Below are positions 5,932-43,844 of a DNA stretch of 51,430 nucleotides, piece by piece; the first letter of the stretch is position 1, and each line of letters starts with the position of its first letter. This DNA comes from an uncultured Lacticaseibacillus sp. (GTDB lineage Bacteria > Bacillota > Bacilli > Lactobacillales > Lactobacillaceae): assembly GCA_934370925.1 (NCBI GenBank), contig CAKRNG010000013.1:1-51430 (forward strand). Reading direction: 5' to 3'. A model generated the notes under the pieces. It was not told where the DNA came from and searched no databases. It saw nothing but the letters and a program-made list of their open reading frames with translations. The position numbers and the translations under genes are program-made.

Positions 5932-6092
5932 GAGGCTGCGCCAGAAGACGGTTTGGCCCCGGTATATAAAGCAAGGTACGCGTAAATCCCGAACTTAGGA
6001 TTTATGCGTGCCTTGCTTTATATGTGAGGGGACAGTCTTCTGGCGCGCGACTGGATGTAACGTTCGTGTGCCTTGAACTTATGGCGCACCCA
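5932..6092 (+). repeat. Family-1 hairpin repeat, copy a (downstream of lacD)
   Basis: A nested inverted repeat. The outer arms GCGCCAGAAGAC / GTCTTCTGGCGC enclose TATATAAAGCAAGG...CCTTGCTTTATA with apical AAATCC/GGATTT around CGAACTTA. A conserved tail (GCGCGACTGGATGTAACGTTC) runs to GGCGCACC near 6092. It lies in sense 60 bases after the lacD stop. Related copies are at 25131-25262 (minus), 9291-9352 and 11274-11329. Stem bases differ between copies while pairing is kept. Confidence 0.75.
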
Positions 6093-25130: not shown

Positions 25131-25262
25131 AACGTTACATCCAGTCGCGCGCCAGAAGACTGTCCCCTCACATACAAGGCAGGCCCGACAGAAATCCTAA
25201 GTGCGGGATTTTCGCCGGGCCTGCCTTGTATACCGGGGCCAAATCATCTTCTGGCGCAGCCT
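25131..25262 (-). repeat. Family-1 hairpin repeat, copy b (directly after glmS)
   Basis: Read on the minus strand it begins at the glmS stop codon with GGCTGCGCCAGAAGA. It shows the same nested inverted repeat as copy a: outer GCGCCAGAAGA/TCTTCTGGCGC, inner TATACAAGGCAGGCCCG with its complement, apex around CGCACTTA, then the tail GCGCGACTGGATGTAACGTTC. Many stem positions differ from copy a with pairing kept. Confidence 0.78.
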
Positions 25263-30780: not shown

Positions 30781-30956
30781 CCGGGGTGGACTTGTGTGGG
30801 TACAAGGCCGGTGCGCTCAGGCGGTCTCCGTTGCGGGCTTATGAGGGCCGGAATGTGGTGTGGTACAGGCCGGTGTACTCAGGTGGTCTCCGTTACGGGC
30901 TTATGAGGGCCGGAACGTGGTGTGGTACAGGCCGGTGCACTCAGGTGGTCTCCTAC
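30781..30956. repeat. 62-bp tandem repeat, about 2.8 copies
   Basis: Units begin at about 30781, 30848 and 30910 and contain CCGGAAxGTGGTGTGGTACA, then GGCCGGTGxxCTCAGGxGG, then TCTCCGTTxCGGGCTTATGA. Copies 2 and 3 are almost identical; copy 1 is more diverged. The 62-bp period is not a multiple of three and stops fall in all frames, so it is not coding. A degenerate pair of similar 60-bp units lies at 43394-43500. Confidence 0.8.
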
Positions 30957-30989: not shown

Positions 30990-31153
30990 GAGGTAAAACC
31001 CTTTTCAGGCAGGACATTCGCGGCTGCGCGCGAATGTCTTATCGAGGTTAGGTTTGCTCACTAAAGTTTGATTTACTGACACTGCACATCCGAGTTCCAA
31101 CATAATCAACCAGCAAACGGATGCAACGCAAGGAGCGACAGCGACGTTGCGTC
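30990..31153 (+). repeat. Family-2 repeat, copy a
   Basis: It begins GTAAAACCCTTTTCAGGCAG and contains the perfect 10-bp hairpin GACATTCGCG / CGCGAATGTC followed by TTATCGAG. After a variable middle with TCCGAGTT it ends in AACGCAAGGAGCG and AGCGACGTTGC, which can pair. The same modules in the same order occur inverted at 46551-46704. It lies antisense to the flanking genes. Confidence 0.75.
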
Positions 31154-31197: not shown

Positions 31198-31428
31198 GGC
31201 AGTTGCGGGGGAAAGTTTGGCGGAGGTTTTGGGGTGCGGAAGTGGTGAAAGTTTCTTGGCGGTTTACCGCCTTAGAAACGGGACGACTTTGAGACTGGCA
31301 GGCAATTTTCCTGACAGGCTCAAAGCGAGGTGGAATAACTTCAGCCGGGCTTTGGCTGAAGTTATGGAACCGTGCCCCACCACTGGAGACACCCCAAAAC
31401 TGGAGCCGAACTTTTCCCCACAACTGCC
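31198..31428. repeat. Family-3 branched structured element, copy a
   Basis: Terminal arms 31198-31221 and 31405-31428 pair over 24 bp with one mismatch and two G-U pairs. Inside them GTTTTGGGGTG pairs with CACCCCAAAAC and AGTGGTG with CACCACT. The enclosed region folds as three hairpins: 31251-31279 (GGCGGT/ACCGCC), 31288-31325 (TTTGAG/CTCAAA) and 31335-31365 (ATAACTTCAGCC/GGCTGAAGTTAT). No open frame is credible. It may be a structured RNA or a MITE-like element. Confidence 0.7.
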
Positions 31429-32162: not shown

Positions 32163-33264
32163 TTAACATTGCCTGCTATATAAAATGTGGAAGAATGTCT
32201 TTTCGACACCAATAAAGGTTTATATATTTCCTTTCTTGATTTACACTCTGCATTTTGTTTAGTTCCGTCATCATCAGTATTCCCACGTAGATAAATATCT
32301 TTGCGACATTGACTGACTCTTGAACTTTAAGGTACTAGCCATACCCTGAATGATTAATTTATTTCTGCGTATTGAATTAAGTTCTCAACCGCATTTTGGT
32401 CGCGGTGCATCACTGCCCCACATTCATAACACACATAGTCATCATGCCCTGTACGATGAATCTGATTGCCCGCTAAGCCAACCTTATCGGCACCGGTTTT
32501 AACGAATCCGCATTTAGAACACCGTTGTGTACTTGGGTAGAAGCGGTCAGCCATAATCAGCTTAACGCCATGCCACGCGCGCTTATACTGCATGAGCACT
32601 TTGAACTTACCAAACAGCGAACGGTGAAGATTTTTCGCTAGGTGCTTGTTCATGCGCATGTGCAGGTTGTCCAAGCGCAATTTATTACCAATTACCTTAG
32701 CTCGGTCCGTCTTGAAACTGTTTTTAGACCGTTTCTTTGATTTGAACTGTGGTTGCGCATGATTCGGCATTTGGGGGTCGAAATAGTTCTGCCAGGCTCT
32801 CGCTAAATCATTAACCGCCAATTGTAAAACTCTGGCTGATTGCGCATATTGCCAATCTTGCTTGTCATTTACCAGTTCATTACGCACCTTGCGCTCATTT
32901 GGCCGTAATGTTTTGTCTGCCATCACAACGGACGCGTCATACATCTCGTTCCAAATTTCAAGGGCTTGGTTATAACAATACCGGCGATAAGCGAATAGCC
33001 GCGTGAGCACCAGACGCATTGTTGCGTTGGGTTACATTTTGATTTTGTGTGTTTTAATCATTTGGGTTCACCTCTTTTCCTAAGTCAATTATACAACCTA
33101 GCCTGGTTTTGGCTAGCGATTTCAATCAACTTAACTAGAGGTGAACTGGCTAAAAATGAGCCTACTTCCAACCAATTATTTAGACTCAAGATACCCGTTG
33201 TTACGTACTATTCCATATTTTCGATTACAGTTTTAGACCTCCTATCTCGTTTAACGGTGCCCGA
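32163..33264 (-). mobile_element. IS1341-like (tnpB-only, IS200/IS605 group) element remnant
   Basis: It contains a disrupted tnpB and no tnpA. The left region has a perfect hairpin CTAGCC/GGCTAG (33098-33116) inside a larger inverted repeat GTTCACCTCT/AGAGGTGAAC (33065-33074 and about 33137-33146), as expected of single-strand-transposed ends. About 190 bases follow tnpB and hold no gene; the guide (omega) RNA end of such elements normally lies there. The exact outer ends are uncertain. It lies between the permease and ATPase genes of one operon. Confidence 0.6.
32354..33061 (-). pseudogene. tnpB: Broken tnpB (RNA-guided nuclease of IS200/IS605 group)
   Basis: The original start is the ATG at 33061 after GAGGTG. 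It gives MIKTHKIKM, then an in-frame TAA where a Tyr is expected, then PNATM and a 221-residue open remainder. That remainder has the normal N-terminal region (AYRRYCYNQALEIW) and the C-terminal zinc finger (CSKCG, CYECG). The central part with the first two RuvC motifs is missing: the frame jumps from NLHMRMNK to HLAKNLHRSLFGKF, well short of the usual 370-400 residues. The third RuvC motif reads HRDQNA instead of DRDxNA. Nuclease activity is not possible. Confidence 0.85.
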
Positions 33265-43393: not shown

Positions 43394-43500
43394 GCCGGCT
43401 TGGTGCGCGGCGGATTTTGCTACGTGACTTTTGGGCCGGAACGGGGTGCAGTCCGGCCGGTGGTGCGCGGGCTGAACTTGCTCCGTGGTGTTTGGGGCTG
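43394..43500. repeat. Degenerate 60-bp tandem repeat related to the 30.8-kb repeat
   Basis: CCGGCTTGGTGCGCGG, TTGCTACGTG and TTTTGGGCCGG (43395-43440) recur as CCGGTGGTGCGCGGGCTG, TTGCTCCGTG and TTTGGGG (43457-43498). The sequence GGGCCGGAACGxGGTG is shared with the 62-bp repeats at 30848-30956. The second copy forms the left arm of family-3 element b. Confidence 0.5.
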
Positions 43501-43717
43501 GATCGCAGTGTGGCCGACACTGACGATGGCCATAGTTCTAGGCGGTGAACCGCTAAGAACTTCTGGCTTCATCCGCTGACGCGTATTACGCCTAGATGTG
43601 AAGCCTCGGCTCGCTGCGCTCCCACGAGTCTCCCCATCTGCCAGTCTGACCAAAACCCGGTCAGACTCCCACTGCTGAGCCCCACACCACTCCGCAAGTA
43701 CAGCTCGTACACCACCG
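43458..43717. repeat. Family-3 branched structured element, copy b
   Basis: The left arm 43458-43510 and right arm about 43668-43717 pair over some 50 bases: CGGTGGTG with CACCACCG, ACTTGC with GCAAGT, GTGGTG and TTGGGGCT with AGCCCC and CACCAC, and GCAGTG with CACTGC. Enclosed hairpins are 43533-43561 (AGTTCT, GGCGGT/ACCGC, AGAACT), 43564-43604 (GGCTTCAT/GTGAAGCC) and 43643-43667 (AGTCTGACC/GGTCAGACT). The layout matches copy a at 31198-31428. No gene is present; the rest of 43367-43896 is a terminator and AT-rich spacer. Confidence 0.68.
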
Positions 43718-43844
43718 ATGTTGTGTCAGCTTATATATGTGCACCCTTTTAAGGTCAATAACTCTCTATATTATGTAAACGACTCGCAAATACGAGCCGC
43801 TTTACTGCCTTAAAACCAAATAAATCTGACGAGGACTAGTACCC

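Follow-up and report, generated by a model that had tools for sequence, protein, structure and literature searches.

A dispersed foldback family of Lactobacillaceae looks more like mobile DNA that keeps its fold than like a working RNA

Two branched foldback units lie in the window, a 51,430-nucleotide stretch of an uncultured Lacticaseibacillus genome: copy a on the plus strand (31198-31428) and copy b, whose family orientation is minus (43458-43717). We propose that both are probably members of a single Lactobacillaceae family of dispersed, non-autonomous foldback DNA elements, about 200-330 nt long including an upstream hairpin, which would be moved in trans and whose stems would be kept mainly by processes at the DNA level. 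In the stems both arms change sequence at once, which fits mobile DNA with a retained fold better than a functional RNA. The preliminary description had offered a choice between a new structured RNA class and an old MITE-like family; dispersed copies, their presence or absence at matching sites, the lack of a promoter signal and nearly strand-symmetric pairing lean towards the MITE-like half of that choice and away from the RNA class. A mobile element is favoured over an RNA gene because the element is absent, flipped or trimmed at orthologous sites, because at three of five aligned loci a native terminator has the unit between its two arms, and because there is no promoter signal and G-U pairs are about equally many on both strands of 55 examples. 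Neighbouring L. pantheris copies stand head to head in all 18 pairs compared. Against it stand the strand preference of the fold and two pair columns with a G-U consensus, both of which fit an RNA, together with strand-specific conserved loops; moreover, no transposase was found (Y1, PF01797, in genomes G005 and G012) and no target-site duplication was established.

Copies a and b in the window

By sequence, the window's Lacticaseibacillus lies near L. sharpeae, L. zhaodongensis and L. songhuajiangensis, to which its CdaA shows best-segment identities of 85%, 80% and 78%, respectively. Copy a is flanked by an ABC ATPase gene and cdaA, and copy b by argG and argH. Both are intergenic and 3' of minus-strand genes, as first described, with the ABC ATPase gene ~53 nt from copy a and argG ~180 nt from copy b. 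When both strands are considered, copy a is the strongest fold of the window (240-nt scan in 40-nt steps), at -136.3 kcal/mol (z -11.5; 0/200 shuffles as good). Copy b folds at -132.7 kcal/mol on the plus strand (z -9.0; 0/200 shuffles as good) and at -135.2 kcal/mol on the minus strand (z -8.3).

The predicted fold of copy a bears out the architecture drawn earlier for 31198-31428: a closing stem of 8+15 bp and an inner stem of ~12 bp plus 7 bp enclose three hairpins. The 5' strand of the closing stem spans 31198-31240 and pairs with ~31387-31428, and the inverted repeat 31198-31236/31390-31428 is 82% complementary. Hairpin 1 (31251-31279) reads GGCGG-TTTA-CCGCC with a T/TT internal loop and carries the signature GCGGTTYACCGC. 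Hairpin 2 (31284-31327), drawn by the fold and by our second covariance model (R2), has a conserved A.G mismatch (GAGACTG/CAGGCTC), and hairpin 3 (31329-31371), a perfect stem of 12-13 bp, stands where L. pantheris copies have their third hairpin. Upstream, a weak candidate hairpin, hp0, spans 31120-31153 (z -1.6; 13/200 shuffles as good). All these features read on the plus strand. The unit scores 73.3 bits with our first covariance model (R1) and 71.0 bits with R2, although the training alignments of both include copy a.

Judged on shared motifs, copies a and b are related and lie in opposite orientation, a on the plus and b on the minus strand. The signature GCGGTTYACCGC occurs exactly twice in the 51,430 bases, on the plus strand at 31259-31270 (copy a) and on the minus strand at 43542-43553 (copy b), where 0.01 occurrences are expected by chance. 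Copy b's hairpin 1 (43534-43561, minus; R2 model positions 19-46, 8.5 bits) reads AGTTCT-T-AGCGG-TTCA-CCGCC-T-AGAACT, and the flanking core, CTCAGCAGTG...CACTGCGATCCAG, reads on the minus strand too. Its 5' half is CTCAG-CA-GTG (43670-43679), a pattern that by itself is expected 1.2 times in the window; its 3' half is CAC-TG-CGATCCAG (43498-43510), one mismatch from CACNNCGTTCCAG, a pattern with four other one-mismatch places in the window. This core counts as evidence because both halves are placed together with hairpin 1. Copy b also has a perfect hairpin, GTCTGACC/GGTCAGAC (43644-43666, minus), drawn in the folds of both strands, and an upstream terminator-like hairpin, its hp0, at 43777-43801 (minus; z -3.9); by reading, L. 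zhaodongensis has a terminator-like hairpin at the corresponding place.

Copy b is a divergent member, since neither covariance model finds it with significance: even at E up to 5, R1 has no match at this place, and R2 gives 8.6 bits (E 1.5) on the plus and 12.2 bits (E 0.19) on the minus strand. By blastn against 30 genomes of the genus it yields short hairpin matches only, the best with E 9.7e-5, 1.8e-4 (G029) and 6.8e-4 (G020). Its membership of the family, read from the sequence, rests on hairpin 1 and the core motif. The opposite orientations also change how the two copies compare. What stands of the plan first drawn for 43458-43717 is the long closing stem and the several hairpins (0/200 shuffles); the shared TTTGGGG strand and the matching of first, second and third hairpins with those of copy a are not homology. 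The earlier claim that pairing had been kept through many base changes between a and b loses its support as drawn, because the copies had been aligned in opposite orientations, while change on both sides with pairing kept does hold family-wide.

The surroundings hold further repeats. Next to copy a, a 62-nt tandem repeat (30794-30953; 2.5 copies, 91% matches) carries the minus-strand sequence CACCACGTTCCGG, which differs from the family core at one position, and 43436-43448, adjoining copy b, likewise has one mismatch to that core. A second foldback family is present at 5933-6048 and 25148-25261 as near-perfect hairpins of ~114 nt with conserved ends CGCCAGAAGAC/GTCTTCTGGCG, whose inner stems differ in sequence from one copy to the other while staying almost fully paired within each. 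The interval that separates copies a and b encodes, at 32354-33019, the 221-aa C-terminal part of a TnpB-like RNA-guided nuclease.

A many-copy family with a constant core

A blastn search with copy a reached one L. pantheris element (E 1e-9, over unit positions 47-128), and that element in turn 26 strong places in L. pantheris, itself included. R1, built from 28 sequences, matches 18 of 30 genomes of the genus at E ≤0.01 with 148 candidates scored per genome; it finds 120 copies in L. pantheris (G005), 41 in G032, 29 in G012 (which we take to be the L. casei ATCC 393 chromosome, hence our label "L. casei-type") and 23, 23, 22 and 22 in the next genomes. R2, which has three hairpins, finds 107 copies in L. 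pantheris and matches in 18/30 genus genomes at E ≤0.1. For L. sharpeae, L. zhaodongensis and L. songhuajiangensis, R1 gives no match and R2 zero, two and one weak matches, in that order. Across the Lactobacillaceae, 96 of 397 sampled genomes match R1 at E ≤0.001 (11 candidates scored per genome). Taken over all searches, matching genomes have between one and more than 100 copies. CGTTCCA stands 3' of the branched part in 13 of 14 folded loci from 13 of these genomes. Like a MITE family, the elements form many dispersed non-coding copies per genome.

The preliminary description had named a lack of covarying homologues and a match to an Rfam family as findings that would count against it; homologues with covarying stems were found in large number, and the units match no Rfam family. 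At the gathering threshold in the window, and at E up to 5 around both copies, Rfam returned nothing credible (the best sub-threshold score was PsiU2-55, 23.2 bits against a cut-off of 55), and 20 further family loci gave no match. Among 72,556 plasmid records, neither copy a nor a G155 element has a match; an L. casei-type element matches four, all from Lactobacillaceae, in two of which no common mobilising gene was seen. A G155 element found no match in phages, nor did the strict core pattern in IMG/VR.

The conserved core consists of CTCAG-NN-GTGAAA, AAGGCCGA and CAC-N'N'-CGTTCCAG, and joins two or three hairpins and the closing stem, all of which vary with compensatory changes. Between the core halves the order is hairpin 1, AAGGCCGA, hairpin 2. 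In 55 distinct diverse examples, a regular-expression set chosen by a loose form of the core and hence no fair sample of divergence, CTCAG is present in 54 and both GTG and CGTTCCAG in all 55; in 51, the two free positions next to GTG form Watson-Crick matches with their partners. Many copies have a T.T mismatch and a TTYA-like loop in hairpin 1, and most an A.G mismatch in hairpin 2; a third hairpin is found in L. pantheris copies and copy a. Terminal inverted repeats take the forms AGTGCCAA...TTTGGCAC, GTGCCGGCAAAG...CTTTGCCAGCAC and AGTCC...GGAC.

Covariation was measured in 83 distinct L. pantheris sequences, where 93.9% of cells pair, against 83.1% in shuffled and 31-42 in slid controls. 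Change on both sides is seen at 32 of 47 pairs, against 19.2 shuffled, and 7 of 8 helices contain such pairs; these figures, which are uncorrected for the relatedness of copies, exceed those of all 500 shuffles and of every slid version.

Two sets of similar-looking loci stand apart. Matches to copy a positions 8-46 (L045, L047, L050-L053, near 1434-1560) were rejected as family members: they belong to another conserved motif, CCTAAACTTACACTCCCCAAAAAAGTTCCCCCAAACTTTCC, which several Lacticaseibacillus genomes have next to terminator hairpins, and appear unrelated. Large branched intergenic units that differ in their inner hairpins also occur in other Lacticaseibacillus genomes (L185, L206, L188, L190 and L207); of these, L185 and L206 have a TCGCTGCGCTC stretch in common with copy b.

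Mobile DNA or working RNA

Orthologous sites are filled in one genome and empty in another. The gap between the ABC ATPase gene and cdaA measures ~150 nt in L. zhaodongensis against 733 nt in the window, and that between argG and argH ~230 nt against 530 nt; copies a and b, respectively, are absent there. At copy b's place L. zhaodongensis has a different, simpler foldback between argG and argH (L002:1471-1703). Nine L. casei-type loci were searched in six genomes, with calls mostly made within 330 nt of the right flank and partly by eye. G032 has an insert-sized gap at all five loci with both flanks found. The element is absent at three, flipped at two and trimmed at one of six sites read in G013; absent at three and flipped at one of four in G023; and absent at three of three in G026. 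In the genus of G155, five loci could be aligned with relatives: at three the insert lies between the arms of the terminator read at the empty site, at one it lies just behind the terminator stem, and the fifth is ambiguous. At one of these loci G219 has lost the branched part exactly between GGAAT repeats, and at another its copy is without hairpin 1, and hairpin 2 is a different one. The empty sites of these five loci reveal no constant target-site duplication, and the element ends are fuzzy.

Insertion into terminator loops is not general, since a flanking-arm test gave no clear excess over mismatched controls: 7/20 copies reached the threshold in G155 (two with a T/A tract) against 13/60 controls, and 1/17 in G012 against 7/51. 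A rule that units always sit inside terminator loops was rejected on the G155 counts. Terminator-like hairpins lie within 150 nt upstream of 15/20 G155 copies and within 150 nt downstream of 10/20; for G012 copies the figures are 15/17 and 3/17.

The strongest rival, which we consider unlikely, is a structured RNA family, its copies transcribed from their own promoter or by read-through as, for example, 3'-end stabilisers, sponges or small RNAs, and its stems covarying by selection on the RNA fold. The double-sided change in 7 of 8 helices and the unpaired core residues conserved across the family fit it, as does strand preference: compared with the reverse strand, the fold is better in the family orientation in 64/82 L. 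pantheris rows (two elements counted twice), 37/44 other copies and 2/2 window copies, all non-independent. In G012, moreover, the gene upstream is co-oriented with the copy in 14 of 17 cases by a simple ORF scan, so that these copies lie 3' of it. Yet a terminator-like hairpin precedes 15 of the 17 within 150 nt upstream (3/17 have one within that distance downstream), the genes on either side of G155 copies are unbiased in orientation (11:9 and 9:11), and copies turn over between relatives. Sigma-70-like promoters do not rise above shuffles, and an own promoter was rejected for that reason.

Wobble pairs give a mixed picture of selection on an RNA. Of the 55 diverse examples, 36 fold better in the family orientation (mean -61.5, reverse strand -60.5). 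G-U pairs in this set are nearly balanced, with 66 on the family strand and 69 on the other. With two G-U-consensus columns left out, the model-fitted alignments have 59 G-U and 37 A-C cells in A3, a moderate excess, and two of each in A4; in the omitted columns, both from L. pantheris, G-U leads with 38 and 32 cells. For comparison, 53 distinct tRNAs drawn by ARAGORN contain 54 G-U and 0 A-C, the zero arising partly by construction because ARAGORN draws mainly allowed pairs; folded with RNAfold, the same tRNAs have 95 G-U on their own strand and 60 on the reverse. The G-U counts imply that single-step wobble changes are little favoured, a pattern that joint change of both arms at the DNA level would produce.

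A second rival, distinctly improbable in our judgement, makes the copies co-opted boundary elements, bidirectional transcription insulators at gene borders that would persist beside gene ends and terminators. Whichever way the neighbouring gene points, 19 of 20 G155 copies have an ORF 42-193 nt from the 3' side of their core, the remaining copy at 473 nt, and copies are placed in or beside terminators. Neighbouring copies also stand head to head, in 18/18 distinct pairs (19/19 rows) at the fetched L. pantheris loci and in 10 of 12 pairs at 20 loci of other genomes, the other two being tandem; most head-to-head L. pantheris gaps lack long ORFs, and several contain small ORFs in a scan at 60 aa. 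Against insulation, several sites where the element is missing still have an ordinary terminator-like hairpin in the orthologous gap. By eye, the G155 copy list shows no replication-strand bias.

Group IIC introns target terminators. An RNA-mediated (retro) element acting in that way would account for terminator hairpins as sites at some loci and for the fold's strand preference, but it is very improbable, as neither the window nor 20 loci match an Rfam group II intron and the unit is a mere 200-330 nt.

Proposed mobility and relation to known repeats

For the favoured mobile DNA element, we infer that a putative enzyme acts in trans and would use the conserved core to recognise the branched hairpin in its extruded or single-stranded form; the core would itself be under selection for mobility. 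Stems may stay complementary mainly by arm-to-arm template-switch correction; whole hairpins may also be swapped between copies, again maintaining complementarity, and units may nest inside existing hairpins. An autonomous partner was sought as a large insert between core halves in five genomes (the 3' half was found in four of the five and the 5' half in five); places where both halves match have them ~80-100 nt apart, and no such insert turned up among these pairs. The Y1 transposase is present in 13/30 genus genomes; its absence from G005 and G012 led us to reject REP/RAYT as the driver.

A bolder and more tentative proposal, to which we give a minor chance, is that the whole family targets DNA hairpins: moved as a branched single strand or cruciform via its unpaired core, it would insert into hairpin loops, in terminators as well as in other members of the family, leading to nested foldbacks, and templated replacement of both arms would drive the evolution of its stems, giving covariation without selection on RNA.

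REP sequences are far shorter than the present units. Like REP/BIME repeats with RAYT, as described (PMC2817692), the family consists of high-copy extragenic palindromes, often in alternating orientation; unlike them, it is branched as well as longer, and G005 and G012 lack the Y1 transposase. The BOX and RUP repeats of Streptococcus pneumoniae are described as short and dispersed, with inverted ends pairing in a tight fold; BOX is modular, with boxB absent or repeated in some copies, and both are over-represented between convergent genes and suspected of mobilisation in trans (PMC3049150). Compared by description, the present family is likewise short, dispersed, folded, modular and suspected to move in trans, but it spans many genera, keeps an unpaired core while both stem arms vary, and forms head-to-head pairs. 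It shares with prokaryotic MITEs, in the account consulted (PMC10969869), non-coding dispersed copies, inverted ends and a stable predicted stem-loop transcript, and differs in the G+C content of its cores, 54-66% in L. pantheris although several other genomes go down to 33-38%, and in stems that diverge with compensation. With group IIC introns it has a structured DNA target in common (PMC10190682), but it is far shorter and without a group II intron model match.

In rRNA genes, a single template-switch event is described as altering both stem arms without a G-U intermediate (PMC8794818). Both arms are proposed to change at once here as well, in dispersed DNA repeats rather than rRNA genes. 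In the available part of a survey of stem-loop families, L. johnsonii is the only lactobacillus listed (PMC2267715), and we found no description of the present foldback family in the literature searched, which lay largely outside subscription journals.

Covariation is the standard proof of a conserved RNA. Many-copy repeats with strong double-sided change and few G-U intermediates would offer a natural test of whether templated mutation at the DNA level mimics that signal. If our reading is true, it would also add an abundant class of repeats, set beside transcription terminators, to the genome descriptions of food and probiotic bacteria.
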